NCBI RefSeq assembly: GCF_004360155.1
Contig: NZ_SAIS01000001.1
Coordinates: 62,001 to 126,000, forward strand
DNA length: 64,000 nt
Direction: 5' to 3'
Source: Paraglaciecola marina
GTDB lineage: Bacteria > Pseudomonadota > Gammaproteobacteria > Enterobacterales > Alteromonadaceae
Each line of letters starts with the position of its first letter. The stretch's first letter is position 1. Shown here in pieces: positions 58,414 to 63,876 of this stretch. The position numbers and the translations under genes were made by a program. The notes below the pieces were generated by a model. It had not been told where the DNA came from, ran no database searches, and saw nothing but the letters and a program-made list of their open reading frames with translations.

Positions 58414-60579
58414 TTGATTACAAGTAATTCTAATCGAAATATCGTCACTGCCGATTTGTATTCCATTGCTACCAGTGGTGTGAATGCCAGTAATCAACTA
58501 TTAACTACTACCGGTAACAATATTGCCAATGTTAATACTGAAGGGTATGTACGAGAGCAAACCATATTTGAAGGACAACTTTATGGAGGAGTAGGTGAGT
58601 CTACTACTTCAAGGGTACTCAATACCTTTGCACAAAATCAATTGCGTCGCGATACCACCATGCAAAGTGAGTTTCAGACCTATTACGATAAAACCTCTGT
58701 TTTAGATAATTTATTTGCCAGTGAAGCCAATAGCATATCAAGTAGTATGAGCCGTTTTTTTGCAGCTATTCAGACAGCTACTGATGACCCAACTAGTATG
58801 GCCGCGAGACAGGTCGTACTAGGGGAAGCTGAGTTAATGGTTAGCCAAATAGGCATAGTTTCTAATTTTTTAGATGAGAGAGAAGATGAGGTCAATAAAG
58901 AGTTTGAAGCTACAATTGGTGTCGCCAATACTTTAATTCAGTCTATTTCTGATTTAAATGAATCAATACGCAGCATTCAAGGCAATAACCCTAATAGTGA
59001 ACCTGGTGCACTAAAAAACGAGCGTGACCAAGCTATTATGGAGCTTGCAGAATTGGTATCTATAGAAACACGAGTCGATGCTGATGATGGTGGTGTATTA
59101 GTTAATTTATCATCGGGTGAATCTTTAGTATTACAAGATGGCTCCTTTAATGTTTTTACTGTCAGTAATGATGCTGACTTAAGCTATACCTCATTGCAAT
59201 TAACCAGTGATGACAATGTCACAAGTTTAAACATTCATGAAACTGATATGGGCGGAACCCTAGGTGGTTTGTTTAGATATAGAGATGAAGTGCTAGAAAG
59301 TAGTCGCCGGGAGTTAGGTCAAATAGCCCTAGCTTTAACCGATGCGGTTAATACTCAAAACAAACTGGGTATGGATTTTGATCAGCAACTAGGTACTGAC
59401 ATTTTTACTAGGCCAGAGGTTACCGGCTTAAAATATCCTGATAACTCAGATCCCAGCTTATTAGTTTCTGGCCGTATGACTGCTGGTGAGAGCTCCAGTC
59501 TTACTAGTGCCGATTATCGTGTCACGGTTGATGGAACAACTAGTGGTACTCCAGATACCATTGATATTACCGTCGCCTTAGTAAATGTAGATGGTACACC
59601 GGTTACAGACACGGATGGCAATGCCATCACACAAAGTTATTCTGGGTTAATCGCAGAAGAAGGCACCTTCAATTCTGTGATAGGTGGGATTGAATTGGAA
59701 TTTGCAAGCGGTGATGCATATGCTGTAGGAGATGAGTTTCTACTGCAACCTACCAAAGAGGCTGCTAGCGAAATTGAGTTGGCGATAACTCGCCCAGAAG
59801 ACTTAGCTTTTGCTTCACCTATTCGCGTTGAAGGTAATATAAATAATCTCGGTGATACCGAGGTAACATCAAGCTCTGTTACAAACACCACTGTGGATAA
59901 TACCTTTGCAGATTTAGGTGCTTCAGCATTTGATGGTGCTGGTGGTATTCATAGTGCAGGCACTTCGCCAACAGGGGCGGGTGGTGTCGGTGCGCCAGCA
60001 GAAATTTATTTTACATCAGCCACTGATTATCAAGTACTAGATGATGCGGGAAATGTGATCACAGAAGTTTCAGGCGCCACCAGTTTTTCAAACATGTTGG
60101 CACAAGCTGAAGCTTCTGGAACTGGTCCAGCATGGCCTAGCGAGTTTTCTGCCATGGATAATTATCCTGGTTATGATTTCAGTTTGCAGGGCGAGCCGAA
60201 AGCCGGTGATAGCTTTACAATTGGATACAATACTGATGGTTTAAGTGACACCAGTAATGGTTTAGCGTTAGCCAACCTGCAAACTGCAGATAGCATGCTG
60301 TTAAATAATAATGGTGCTGGCAATCTAGTTACTTTTCATGAAAGTTATTCAAATATTGTGACCGATATTGGACAAAAGGCATCAAGCGCAGATATCTCAC
60401 TACAAGCCGCAGATGCCCTAAAATCCCAATCTAATAATTGGTTTCAATCCGTGTCTGGGGTTAGCTTAGATGAAGAAGCCGCGAACTTGGTTAAATATCA
60501 GCAATCTTATGCTGCATCCGCTAGGCTGCTGAGTACGGCTCAAGATTTATTCAATACAATTTTAAGTGTGGTTTCTTAA
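58414..60579 (+). CDS. flgK: Flagellar hook-filament junction protein FlgK
   Basis: A 721-residue HAP1. The start is a TTG at 58414 behind AGGAG with eight-base spacing; no ATG is in frame before the conserved part. LYSIATSGVNASNQLLTTTGNNIANVNTEGYVREQTIF and the C-terminal SGVSLDEEAANLVKYQQSYAASARLLSTAQDLFNTIL are diagnostic. A variable central region of about 400 residues, rich in Thr/Asp/Gly, makes it longer than E. coli FlgK (about 550). Confidence 0.93.
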   Translation: MITSNSNRNIVTADLYSIATSGVNASNQLLTTTGNNIANVNTEGYVREQTIFEGQLYGGVGESTTSRVLNTFAQNQLRRDTTMQSEFQTYYDKTSVLDNLFASEANSISSSMSRFFAAIQTATDDPTSMAARQVVLGEAELMVSQIGIVSNFLDEREDEVNKEFEATIGVANTLIQSISDLNESIRSIQGNNPNSEPGALKNERDQAIMELAELVSIETRVDADDGGVLVNLSSGESLVLQDGSFNVFTVSNDADLSYTSLQLTSDDNVTSLNIHETDMGGTLGGLFRYRDEVLESSRRELGQIALALTDAVNTQNKLGMDFDQQLGTDIFTRPEVTGLKYPDNSDPSLLVSGRMTAGESSSLTSADYRVTVDGTTSGTPDTIDITVALVNVDGTPVTDTDGNAITQSYSGLIAEEGTFNSVIGGIELEFASGDAYAVGDEFLLQPTKEAASEIELAITRPEDLAFASPIRVEGNINNLGDTEVTSSSVTNTTVDNTFADLGASAFDGAGGIHSAGTSPTGAGGVGAPAEIYFTSATDYQVLDDAGNVITEVSGATSFSNMLAQAEASGTGPAWPSEFSAMDNYPGYDFSLQGEPKAGDSFTIGYNTDGLSDTSNGLALANLQTADSMLLNNNGAGNLVTFHESYSNIVTDIGQKASSADISLQAADALKSQSNNWFQSVSGVSLDEEAANLVKYQQSYAASARLLSTAQDLFNTILSVVS

Positions 60580-60596: not shown

Positions 60597-61820
60597 ATGC
60601 GTATTTCAACAGCACAACTTTATGACCGCAGTATTCAAGCTGTCTTAGAAAACCAAAGCGACTTGTCTGACGTGCAGTTACAGTTATCTTCTGGGAAAAA
60701 GTTGTTAACGCCTGCTGATGATCCTGTTGGTGCTGCTCAAGTGATTAGATTAACTGAAGAAATTGATCAGATAAATCAATTCAAGGTCAATAATAACCTC
60801 TTAAATAACAGTTTAGAGCAAGAAGAAACTGTTCTTGGAAGTGTTAATGATGCTATCGACCGTGCAAGAGTCTTGATGGTGCAATCTGGAAATGGCATTT
60901 TTACAGCGGACGATAAACGTGCTATCGCTATTGAGATTGAAGAAATACGCGATCAAGTCTTTGATTTAATGAATACTCAAAACTCTGCTGGTGAATATAT
61001 TTTTGCAGGTTATCAATCAGAGTCTCCCGCTTTTAGTTTTAATGCCAGTTCACCGGGTAATAAATATAGCTTTGAAGGTGATAATGGCTTTAATGAAATT
61101 AAAATATCTGATTCAGTTAATTTACAAGTAAACAATAGTGGATTTGATGTATTTGAAAATGTAAGTGCTAGAAATAAAGCTTCTATTAGTGGCTCTGTAG
61201 GGGTGACAGAGTCAAGTATGCAAATAGCAGAGCAAGCTAACTTCGAAAAGTTTCACGAAAACAATTACGATGCAGTGGATACTGCAAATAATGAATTTAG
61301 GTTAACTATAGTATCAGCTACTCAAGTACAAGTGACAAATGTTGGCACTGGTGCGGTATTAGATACAGTAGATTTTGAAAGTGGCAGTGGCTTATTATAC
61401 CAAGGTCTAGAATTTAATATTACTGGTACAACAGGCGATTCCGTTGATTTTGAGTTGGCACCACCTGAAAAGAAGAATATTGCAGAAACATTAAATGATT
61501 TTGTTATCGCTTTAAGTAATGAAGATCTTTCAGACTCTGATTTTGAAGAAGCATTAACGGATGCGTTAACAGGAGCCGATAATGCTTTAACTAGTATTGG
61601 TGAGTCGGTATCAGCTATTGGTGCAAGAATGAATGTAGCTGATTCGGTGCTGGCTTCGAATTTAAATTTACAAATTGCCAACCAAACTGCAAGAGCCAAT
61701 ATTGAAGAAGTAGATTATGCAGAGGCGGTTTCAGAATTAAGCCGGCAAGAAACCGCCCTGCAAGCCGCTCAGTCTACTTTTAGTTTGGTGACTGGAACAT
61801 CATTATTTGACTACCTGTAA
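60597..61820 (+). CDS. flgL: Flagellar hook-filament junction protein FlgL
   Basis: A 407-residue HAP3. MRISTAQLYDRSIQAVLENQSDLSDVQLQLSSGKKLLTPADDPVGAAQVIRL and the C-terminal ANIEEVDYAEAVSELSRQETALQAAQSTFSLVTGTSLFDYL are flagellin-like. Starts with ATG 18 bp after flgK. No terminator is obvious before the leftward sialidase-like gene. Confidence 0.94.
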   Translation: MRISTAQLYDRSIQAVLENQSDLSDVQLQLSSGKKLLTPADDPVGAAQVIRLTEEIDQINQFKVNNNLLNNSLEQEETVLGSVNDAIDRARVLMVQSGNGIFTADDKRAIAIEIEEIRDQVFDLMNTQNSAGEYIFAGYQSESPAFSFNASSPGNKYSFEGDNGFNEIKISDSVNLQVNNSGFDVFENVSARNKASISGSVGVTESSMQIAEQANFEKFHENNYDAVDTANNEFRLTIVSATQVQVTNVGTGAVLDTVDFESGSGLLYQGLEFNITGTTGDSVDFELAPPEKKNIAETLNDFVIALSNEDLSDSDFEEALTDALTGADNALTSIGESVSAIGARMNVADSVLASNLNLQIANQTARANIEEVDYAEAVSELSRQETALQAAQSTFSLVTGTSLFDYL

Positions 61821-61851: not shown

Positions 61852-62793
61852 CTAGTTTTTTAGTCCATTAATATCTATTTCAGACATGTACACATTGCTT
61901 TTGTTATCTTCATGGGAAGAGTAATAACAGACATATAATTTCGTTTCTTTCAGTACCAGACCGGGGTAACTATTATCACCCTTGGATGGCAAGATAAGTT
62001 GTTCCGTTAACTCGGCTGTTTTCAAATTTAGCGTTAAAATTCCTGTTACTAACTTTCCTTTTTTGATAATTCTTCCCGCGACTACAGCACATTCAGAGTT
62101 GAGCTTTAGCATTGCGGGGCCGCCAATGTATCTTTTTAAATCAATCCACTTCCAGGTTTTATAAGGAAAATGGCTCACCCCTAATTGTGCCGTGTAACTA
62201 TCAGCGTCGCGTCTTATTAGCGCATAAGCAGTTTGGTTATCAAAGATAATATCACTTTCGTTGGGGTAACCTTTGCCGTGTTTCTTTAAGCTAAATGCTT
62301 CGGATACATGGCGATGGAAACTCCGACGGGGATCGCCTGAAAATAAGTTTATAGCATTTCGTTTGCGGTTGTAGGCGAAGCCATAACCCAAGCCTAGGTG
62401 CCAAGTTATTCGCCATAACCACCATCCTTTTTCGGCAAACTCTTTAAAAGACGACCAACTTTCGCCTGTTTGTGATACCCAACACAGGTTGCGAGTACCA
62501 AGAGTACGATTTTCATTATTGGTTTTCCTAGCGTAGGCGATGAGTAATAAATGCCCATTAGGGGTAATACTTAATTTGGGATCTCTAAGGTCAGTATTTG
62601 GCAAATGAATTCGAGTTTTGTTTTGTACTTTACCTGTATTATCTAGAGTTAATACGCAAATTCGCCCATCAGCACTTATATGGTTTGTAGCCTCTCGATA
62701 GCAGCAATAAAATTGCTCATCAAAGTGGCATAAATCCACAAAAGCATTGTGACCTGCCCAGTTTCCTATCTTTTTAGACCAATTTATCTGCAT
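61852..62793 (-). CDS. Sialidase-like beta-propeller protein
   Basis: A 313-residue protein with no signal peptide. It shows repeating four-stranded units with the pattern of BNR/Asp-box sialidases: FDEQFYCCYREATNHISADGRICVLTLDNTGKVQNK, DLRDPKLSITPNGHLLLIAYAR and SQTGESWSSF (a degenerate Asp box). The RDPKLS motif resembles a catalytic Arg-Asp region. It faces away from its neighbours, between flgL and the flagellin. The ATG at 62793 has no clear ribosome-binding site. It may act on, or bind, flagellar glycan, but this is inference; the fold is also used by inert propellers. Confidence 0.6.
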   Translation of the reverse strand: MQINWSKKIGNWAGHNAFVDLCHFDEQFYCCYREATNHISADGRICVLTLDNTGKVQNKTRIHLPNTDLRDPKLSITPNGHLLLIAYARKTNNENRTLGTRNLCWVSQTGESWSSFKEFAEKGWWLWRITWHLGLGYGFAYNRKRNAINLFSGDPRRSFHRHVSEAFSLKKHGKGYPNESDIIFDNQTAYALIRRDADSYTAQLGVSHFPYKTWKWIDLKRYIGGPAMLKLNSECAVVAGRIIKKGKLVTGILTLNLKTAELTEQLILPSKGDNSYPGLVLKETKLYVCYYSSHEDNKSNVYMSEIDINGLKN

Positions 62794-62853: not shown

Positions 62854-62869
62854 CGGCAAAAAATTGCCG
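62854..62869. repeat. Short hairpin upstream of the sialidase-like gene
   Basis: CGGCAA and TTGCCG around an AAAA loop, 60 bp before the sialidase-like start and 29 bp before the flagellin sigma-28 promoter. Role unknown. Confidence 0.4.
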
Positions 62870-62897: not shown

Positions 62898-62924
62898 TAA
62901 AGGGATTTTTAAAAGCGTCGATAC
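62898..62924 (+). promoter_or_regulatory. Sigma-28 (FliA) promoter of the flagellin gene
   Basis: TAAA, exactly 15 bases, then GTCGATAC, six of eight matches to GCCGATAA. It lies about 125 bp upstream of the flagellin ATG. Confidence 0.75.
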
Positions 62925-63051: not shown

Positions 63052-63876
63052 ATGAGTTTATTCGTAAATACCAACGTATCTTCTTTGAATGCGCAACGTC
63101 AGTTGTTTGATTCAGGGAATGCTTTAAGTACATCTTTTGAACGTTTGTCATCAGGATTCCGTATTAACAGCGCTGCAGATGATGCCGCTGGTCTACAGAT
63201 TACCGACAGAATGACTACGCAAATCCAAGGTCTAAACCAGGCCGCACGAAACGCTAACGATGCTATATCATTAGCCCAAACCGCTGAAGGCGCGTTAGGC
63301 GAAGTGACAACTGCTTTACAGCGAATTCGTACCCTAGCAGTACAATCACAGAATGGTATTAACTCTTCTGCTGACCGTACGGCTTTGCAGAAAGAAGTCA
63401 GTGCCCTTAAAACTGAAATTACACGTATCTCAACTGACACACAGTTTGGGGGGGTAGATATATTAAAAGGTGATTTTTCTGCGACTTTCTTAGTAGGGGC
63501 CAATGCAGGTCAGACTATTGCTGTCGGTCTTACTAGAACTGATGGTTTTGGGGCTTCAGGCTTAGCTGTTAACGATACTACAGTACAAACTGAAGCCGGA
63601 GCCTCTGCTGCTTTGACTGCTGTTAGTGAAGCAATATCTGCCATTGGTGGTGTCAGAGCTGACCTAGGTGCTTTACAGAATCGTTTTCAGTCTACTATTC
63701 GTAACTTAACCAATATATCTGAAAACGTATCGAGTGCCAGAAGCCGAATCAAAGATACTGATTTTGCTACTGAAACAGCAGAGCTAACTCGTAACCAGAT
63801 TGTACAGCAAGCAAGTTTAACGGTTTTAAGTCAGGCTAATCAGCGTCCACAGTCAGCTCTATCTTTACTAGGTTAA
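63052..63876 (+). CDS. Flagellin
   Basis: A 274-residue filament subunit. N-terminal D0/D1 [53 protein letters not shown] and C-terminal [50 protein letters not shown] are complete. The variable middle is very short (about 140-185), so the outer D2/D3 domain is almost absent, as in many polar marine flagellins. AGGAG precedes the ATG. Preceded by a sigma-28 promoter and a long leader. More flagellin genes may lie beyond the window. Confidence 0.96.

Follow-up and report, generated by a model that had tools for sequence, protein, structure and literature searches.

A gene that we call PROP, predicted to encode a six-bladed propeller of the sialidase type, lies between flgL and the first flagellin gene of Paraglaciecola marina, a position shared by many related genomes that also encode Pse synthesis and a long Maf transferase. 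We estimate at roughly one half the probability that its product is a putative cytoplasmic glycosidase or transglycosidase acting on the Pse-based glycan of flagellin. The more general idea that PROP concerns the flagellin sugar is much strengthened by the data below.

The PROP Gene and Its Surroundings

The window, i.e., the whole stretch of 64,000 nucleotides analysed here (contig NZ_SAIS01000001.1, positions 62,001 to 126,000), ends in a flagellar run (Table 1). The flagellar genes flanking PROP are all on the + strand and PROP alone is leftward among them. Pfam models of FlgK, FlgJ, flagellins, FlaG, FliD and FliS match at this locus; the product named FlgL matches Flagellin_N/C and owes its name to size and position. 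A TTG located two codons upstream of the PROP ATG would provide an alternative start, giving 315 aa. PROP has one match in its own genome, and its GC content (39.6%) is about that of the window (39.9%), so that composition gives no sign of recent import. By inspection, no signal peptide is seen: a hydrophobic start is absent, and residues 2-10 form a confident strand in the structural model.

The dN/dS of PROP in three close pairs (dS < 0.5) is about 0.13-0.16, which indicates purifying selection, and that of flgL in the same pairs is about 0.01-0.06; PROP thus evolves faster than flgL. Joined to the homologues found in relatives and to the conserved synteny described below, these values indicate that PROP is more than a chance ORF. 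The leftward gene that the original prediction placed between flgL and flagellin, in an otherwise rightward flagellar run, is therefore confirmed as a real and constrained gene.

The promoter of flagellin 1 was called with a motif that we take to be the sigma-28 consensus, and a similar site precedes flagellin in 27 of the 29 compared loci, the window's own included. Control of PROP itself by sigma-28 was considered and rejected, since 28 of the 29 upstream regions have no such site and the remaining one has a weak site. A promoter scan found none for PROP, the candidate given in Table 1 being under the scan threshold. A GGCAA/TTGCC inverted repeat is present upstream of PROP (window 62854-62869) and is seen in several relatives too.

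Table 1. Features at the flgL-flagellin junction (window coordinates)
Feature	Position	Strand	Remark
flgK, in the + strand flagellar run	58414..60579	+	
flgL (hook-filament junction protein), usual left neighbour of PROP	60597..61820	+	
PROP (sialidase-fold propeller gene)	61852..62793	-	313 aa from ATG
Possible separate PROP promoter, TTGAGT-17-GATAAA	62806..62834	-	by eye, weak
Sigma-28-like promoter of flagellin 1, TAAA-N15-GTCGATAC	62898..62924	+	no shuffle control
Flagellin gene 1, usual right neighbour of PROP	63052..63876	+	

Synteny at the Flagellin Locus

PROP homologues were found in 38 of the 98 relatives of a first set, own genome included. Two of these copies are fragmentary, each lying next to flagellar genes where a contig ends, and the 36 complete ones are flanked by flgL and flagellin (28 copies), by one of them (3) or by neither (5). 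Among the loci L061-L091, flgL and/or flagellin is a neighbour in 28 of 31. The family sample includes 73 carriers among 196 genomes (E <= 1e-20), and PROP lies beside flgL and/or flagellin in 48 of the 73, which represent 17 genera. Within three ORFs, flgL and flagellin are found on the two sides of PROP in 42 carriers, flagellin only in five, flgL only in one and neither in 25. A count by hand of the carrier genera gives 17 with a flagellar and nine with a non-flagellar location, none being mixed.

Eleven junctions were compared in genomes lacking PROP at this place, one of which has a copy elsewhere. In all 11, flagellin follows flgL with no gene between them (gap of -14 to 491 bp). PROP is thus likely to have entered this junction in a single insertion and to have been retained across 17 genera. 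Furthermore, the 39 flagellar members included in a tree of 93 sequences, some of which are two records of one genome, form one clade with a support of 0.994. The nearest outgroups (L030, L083, L085 and L086) come from Alteromonadales, have a non-flagellar location and show no evident signal peptide. This single flagellar clade and the 48 of 73 carriers with PROP at the flagellin locus indicate that the location is not due to chance. According to the original prediction, the idea of a protein that acts on flagellin sugars would be refuted if the gene stood next to non-flagellar genes in most relatives; in the family sample, flagellar neighbours prevail (48/73). Outside that sample, none of the 49 loci L092-L140 is flagellar, according to labels obtained by BLAST to the flagellar genes of the own genome and with flanks shortened by contig ends in many loci. 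One of these loci has an isolated match to a sigma-54 regulator.

It should be emphasized that PROP is dispensable, being lost within genera and decayed in the congener G020. In the fragmented assembly of this congener, a PROP copy with several stops lies beside an intact flagellin gene (L038 34-821) and accompanies a pse operon that has kept all its ORFs. G118 carries a shortened PROP of 233 aa (L231 2558-3259) beside a gene that looks flgE-like by eye; none of flgF to flgL is visible there. In G043, a 230-aa protein, oxygenase-like by eye (L174 762-1454), is encoded on the usual flgL side.

Relatives outside the Flagellin Locus

An alignment-based search retrieved at least 574 PROP relatives across many phyla, of which the best 80 were kept. 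Alignment A1 comprises the window and 26 others and leaves out 10 of the 36 complete copies, the window's copy standing for one of the 36. Alignment A2 omits four of the best 80 loci: L088 and L091, which were not needed, and L124 and L137, whose matched stretch contains a stop. When genome contigs were scanned by pattern with the single PROP sequence, no relative was found, and viral contigs gave none. Single-sequence searches of PADLOC, plasmids and phages gave no PROP match and PHROGs gave one, at E 0.3.

Pfam families were tallied for 53 of 63 same-strand neighbours of non-flagellar homologues, and no dominant sugar theme appears among the families listed (25 out of 60). Of the 49 loci L092-L140, nine were excluded from this tally, five more failed the ORF match and others have no same-strand neighbour within 400 bp. 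Nothing was found on the PROP gene in the literature, subscription papers being mostly outside the search, and the leads GH143 and BT1020 likewise gave nothing on the PROP family.

The Pse Island and the Long Maf

Beyond the right edge of the window are found three more flagellin genes, flaG, fliD, fliS and, by its position, presumably a fliT-like gene, and then a Pse island. PseB, PseC, PseF, PseI, PseG and PseH models are matched over the NCBI cut-offs from window coordinate 71216, i.e., a complete Pse pathway begins 7.2 kb past the edge. Behind the Pse genes are found ACP, AMP-ligase, SDR, LicD and GT2 genes. The Maf protein (1178 aa, about 94.5-98.0 kb) matches PF20157 at 2e-119 and contains two Maf_flag10_N stretches. 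The flagellin glycosylation island, as delimited here, covers L059 1217-18007 and L060 4583-8119 (window coordinates 71216 to 98019); it also holds acyl genes (ACP/ligase/SDR), sulfotransferase-like genes identified by eye and a glycosyltransferase.

The original prediction had proposed a look beyond the right edge for pse genes and a flagellin glycosylation island, and had counted it as a weakness that no nonulosonic acid gene was visible. Both the Pse genes and Maf are present there, and this weakness was an edge effect. By its location, with flagellin, Pse and Maf genes, PROP is a candidate protein of a flagellin glycosylation island.

The island organization is largely shared. A conserved gene of 361 aa without Pfam or NCBIfam match (x; L059 4066-5151) separates pseF from pseI in 16 of the 21 compared islands, which include cut ones. 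Among 18 carrier islands besides the own one, the row pseF-x-pseI-pseG-pseH is found in 14 and x is missing in two (G039, G044); in the remaining two, the island is truncated by the range retrieved (G009) or its genes are ordered differently (G012). The full row is present in G020, where PROP is decayed, and the non-carrier G034 has a different set.

Over the family sample, PseI passes its cut-off in all 48 flagellar carriers, in 24 of the 25 other carriers (G050 has none) and in 61 of 123 non-carriers. PROP and PseI are on one contig, 9-37 kb apart, in 44 flagellar carriers and on different contigs in four. Six of the 25 other carriers have both genes on one contig, PROP being 0.1-2.9 Mb from PseI. 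Several genera mix PROP carriers with Pse-positive non-carriers. Flagellation was controlled for in the first 98 genomes: among the 84 that are flagellin-positive, PseI is present in 37 of 38 carriers versus 27 of 46 non-carriers. A flagellin search over the 196 genomes used a cut-off of 1e-43, which was too strict (the own genome failed), and its result was set aside.

Three length classes of Maf open frames can be distinguished (about 670-763, 937-1003 and 1036-1308 aa). All 48 flagellar carriers have a frame of at least 1036 aa. Among the other carriers, 22 of 23 have a Maf of at least 900 aa (763 aa in G192), and two have no Maf at E <= 1e-40. With this 900-aa limit, which was set after the lengths had been seen, a long Maf is found in 70 of 71 carriers with Maf versus 15 of 56 non-carriers with Maf, 41 of the 56 having a short one. 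The genera g14, g17, g24 and g75 each include one short-Maf genome (G034, G220, G126 and G141, respectively) among long-Maf mates, and all four lack PROP. However, a long Maf without PROP is also seen in genera that include carriers, e.g., G121, G201, G185, G222 and five genomes of g3.

Fisher tests that treat the genomes as independent, though they are related, give about 4e-15 for PseI, 2e-19 for Maf length and 2e-5 for the flagellin-positive set; counted by genus, PseI is found in 26 of 26 versus 18 of 26 (p about 0.004). Since carriers are related, the co-occurrence with PseI and Maf is not independent evidence.

Predicted Fold and Active Site

PROP was modelled with AlphaFold2 on 77 sequences, and the model (mean pLDDT 96.9) was compared by Foldseek and VIA-align. 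The 24 strands listed in the model were grouped by us into six blades. The closest structure is 5hx0 (Z 35.0); GH33 sialidases, among the 50 matches listed, reach Z of about 30-32 over 289-307 residues, and the P. aeruginosa pseudaminidase 2w38 ranks eighth in Foldseek. According to this model, PROP is a six-bladed sialidase propeller over its full length. The BNR-type propeller without signal peptide of the original prediction is thus upheld as a predicted fold and, for the signal peptide, by inspection.

NCBIfam models, including the curated sialidase and BNR ones, do not match PROP itself, and Pfam gives only Agenet at E 0.15. BNR_2 is matched at E <= 0.01 by 17 of the 77 relatives (from the best 80 of at least 574), yet not by PROP. 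Glycosyltransferase family models of Pfam and NCBIfam have no match, and PDB sequences give chance-level matches (best E 0.05).

Active-site residues were assigned by sequence, strand and motif register, using what we take to be the strand positions of the GH33 Glu, Arg2, Tyr and Asp. Since the profile-profile alignment with three GH33 domains, nearly identical to one another, could not be relied on, the positions depend on strand register and on a weak alignment to 5hx0. In the 77 sequences (27 flagellar and 50 other members, from the best 80 of at least 574), 27 columns are invariant. Glu179, Tyr276, R194 and D71, invariant in 77/77, would occupy the places of the GH33 Glu, Tyr, Arg2 and Asp; in the model, blade 4 carries Glu179 on its first strand and R194 and R195 where its second strand ends, and the first strands of blades 6 and 2 hold Tyr276 and D71, respectively. 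H15, R33, H38, R70, R241 and H294 are also invariant in this set, and R195, beside R194, is kept in 73 of 77 members. By register, the Tyr/Glu nucleophile pair (Tyr276 and Glu179) thus appears to be kept in all 77.

The same register leaves the arginine triad incomplete. The Arg1 place is occupied by H15-x-A17-F18 (HxAF) and has an Arg in 0 of 77 members; position 249, at the Arg3 place, has an Arg in 1 of 27 flagellar members (L078) versus 42 of 50 others. In the blade 1 loop, at the place of the GH33 acid Asp by register only, H38 is found in 77/77 and D42 in 25 of 27 flagellar and 48 of 50 other members. PROP is therefore unlikely to be a canonical sialidase. The proposed check of structure and triad gives a split answer, i.e., a sialidase fold with Glu and Tyr apparently kept, and a triad of which Arg2 alone seems to remain. 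Likewise, of the proposed link with nonulosonic acids, the association of flagellin with Pse stands, while trimming or binding by the usual triad is not supported, Arg1 being absent and Arg3 lost in 26 of 27 flagellar members by register.

Possible Functions

The scenario that we prefer would begin with a single recruitment event, by which the ancestor of an Alteromonadaceae clade acquired a sialidase-superfamily gene at its flagellin locus. The long Maf transferase would put a Pse-based glycan on flagellin, and PROP could act on it in the cytoplasm, before flagellin export, either by glycoside hydrolysis (trimming or editing) or by transglycosylation. We infer, for PROP, its catalytic activity, its substrate, the direction of the reaction and its action before export. 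A glycosidase or transglycosidase has to be reconciled with an incomplete triad, with a dispensable gene that is oriented differently from its neighbours and, in 28 of 29 loci, lacks a sigma-28 site, with the Pse genes that G034 has at its flagellin locus without PROP, with the 61 non-carriers having PseI and the 15 having a long Maf, and with the carrier G192, whose Maf frame is only 763 aa. A more specific form, in which PROP would be a putative sialidase-fold transglycosidase or glycan-remodelling partner of the long Maf, building rather than degrading the flagellin nonulosonic glycan, seems rather unlikely.

The missing arginines could also mean that PROP recognises the flagellin Pse glycan without catalysis, as a checkpoint, a chaperone or a cofactor of the long Maf. 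Arg1 is missing in 77/77 and Arg3 in 26 of the 27 flagellar members (249 is Arg in 42 of 50 others), PROP is associated with the long Maf, and the available part of PMC13317340 provides a precedent in GlfM, the Maf cofactor of Maf-2. However, Glu179, Tyr276, R194, D71, H38 and 22 further residues are invariant in all 77 sequences, export-type homologues included, and 27 invariant residues would seem to exceed what a lectin needs; such a glycan-binding pseudoenzyme is a tentative alternative, of low probability. We also regard as improbable that PROP is unrelated cargo, a gene that came to be fixed here by chance and stayed because the order of flagellar genes is stable. Its opposite orientation, the lack of a sigma-28 site, the losses within genera and the non-flagellar location in 25 of 73 carriers would fit this, but carriers outside the flagellar locus still have PseI (24/25) and Maf (23/25), and the 11 empty junctions point to probably one insertion kept over 17 genera.

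The association with PseI whatever the location of PROP, together with its dispensability and the lack of a visible signal peptide, would suit an enzyme that, in a salvage or housekeeping role, hydrolyses soluble precursors (CMP-Pse, free or misassembled Pse conjugates) and not flagellin itself. This would leave the retained position beside flagellin and the link with the Maf type unexplained, and we consider it quite improbable. Finally, a canonical GH33 sialidase directed at sialic acid of the host or the environment shares the fold, but is very hard to reconcile with the incomplete triad, the curated sialidase and BNR models without match and, again, the lack of a visible signal peptide.

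As parts of the pathway, the available portions of PMC13317340 and PMC7874193 describe sugar synthesis, Maf transferases, a cofactor of Maf and additional glycosyltransferases. If the glycosidase or transglycosidase reading is true, an unnamed and widespread sialidase-fold protein would add an editing or remodelling step to the Pse-flagellin pathway in a marine bacterial family. PROP could also yield an enzyme active on Pse, and its role is directly testable in Alteromonadaceae that are culturable and non-pathogenic.

Comparison with Known Systems

In Aeromonas caviae, the Maf-dependent transfer of Pse to flagellin is cytoplasmic and precedes chaperone binding and export, and filament assembly requires this glycosylation, according to the part of PMC4065374 that is available. 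As far as the accessible text of PMC7874193 goes, heteroglycans started by Fgi-1 are built on flagellin Pse in Aeromonas, and in the accessible text of PMC13317340 Maf-2 requires the cofactor GlfM. The flagellum glycosylation island of A. macleodii is presented as a replacement island in the available part of PMC4033161.

PROP shares its six-bladed propeller, over the full length, with the GH33 enzymes (NanA, NanH, NanI, Neu2 and Salmonella NanH), and their Glu, Tyr, Arg2 and Asp would have counterparts at matching strand positions. However, identity to PROP is 8-15% among the matches listed, PROP is shorter with no signal peptide seen, Arg1 appears absent, Arg3 appears lost in the flagellar clade, and a H38/D42 loop would stand at the place of the acid Asp. 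The P. aeruginosa "pseudaminidase" (2w38, 3h6j) has the same fold, and 2w38 is, by its title, a Pse-directed enzyme; it shares 14-15% identity with PROP and has a longer chain. The uncharacterised Dfer_1899 (5hx0) shares the HxAF, FR, NHV, NE and SYY pattern with PROP in a weak profile alignment (E 0.012), with 15% identity.

Homologues from Planctomycetota, Verrucomicrobiota, Acidobacteriota, Bacteroidota and other phyla are closer to PROP (about 35-41% identity over the whole length) and have the same 27 invariant columns. However, those from Planctomycetota and other phyla mostly have hydrophobic N-termini of export type, judged by eye, and mostly an Arg at 249, and the genes around them are non-flagellar. 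As for the Aeromonas group II islands (Fgi-1, Maf-2), they combine Pse genes and Maf at the flagellin glycosylation island, as here, whereas neither "sialidase" nor "neuraminidase" appears in the main text of PMC7874193 in its accessible form.
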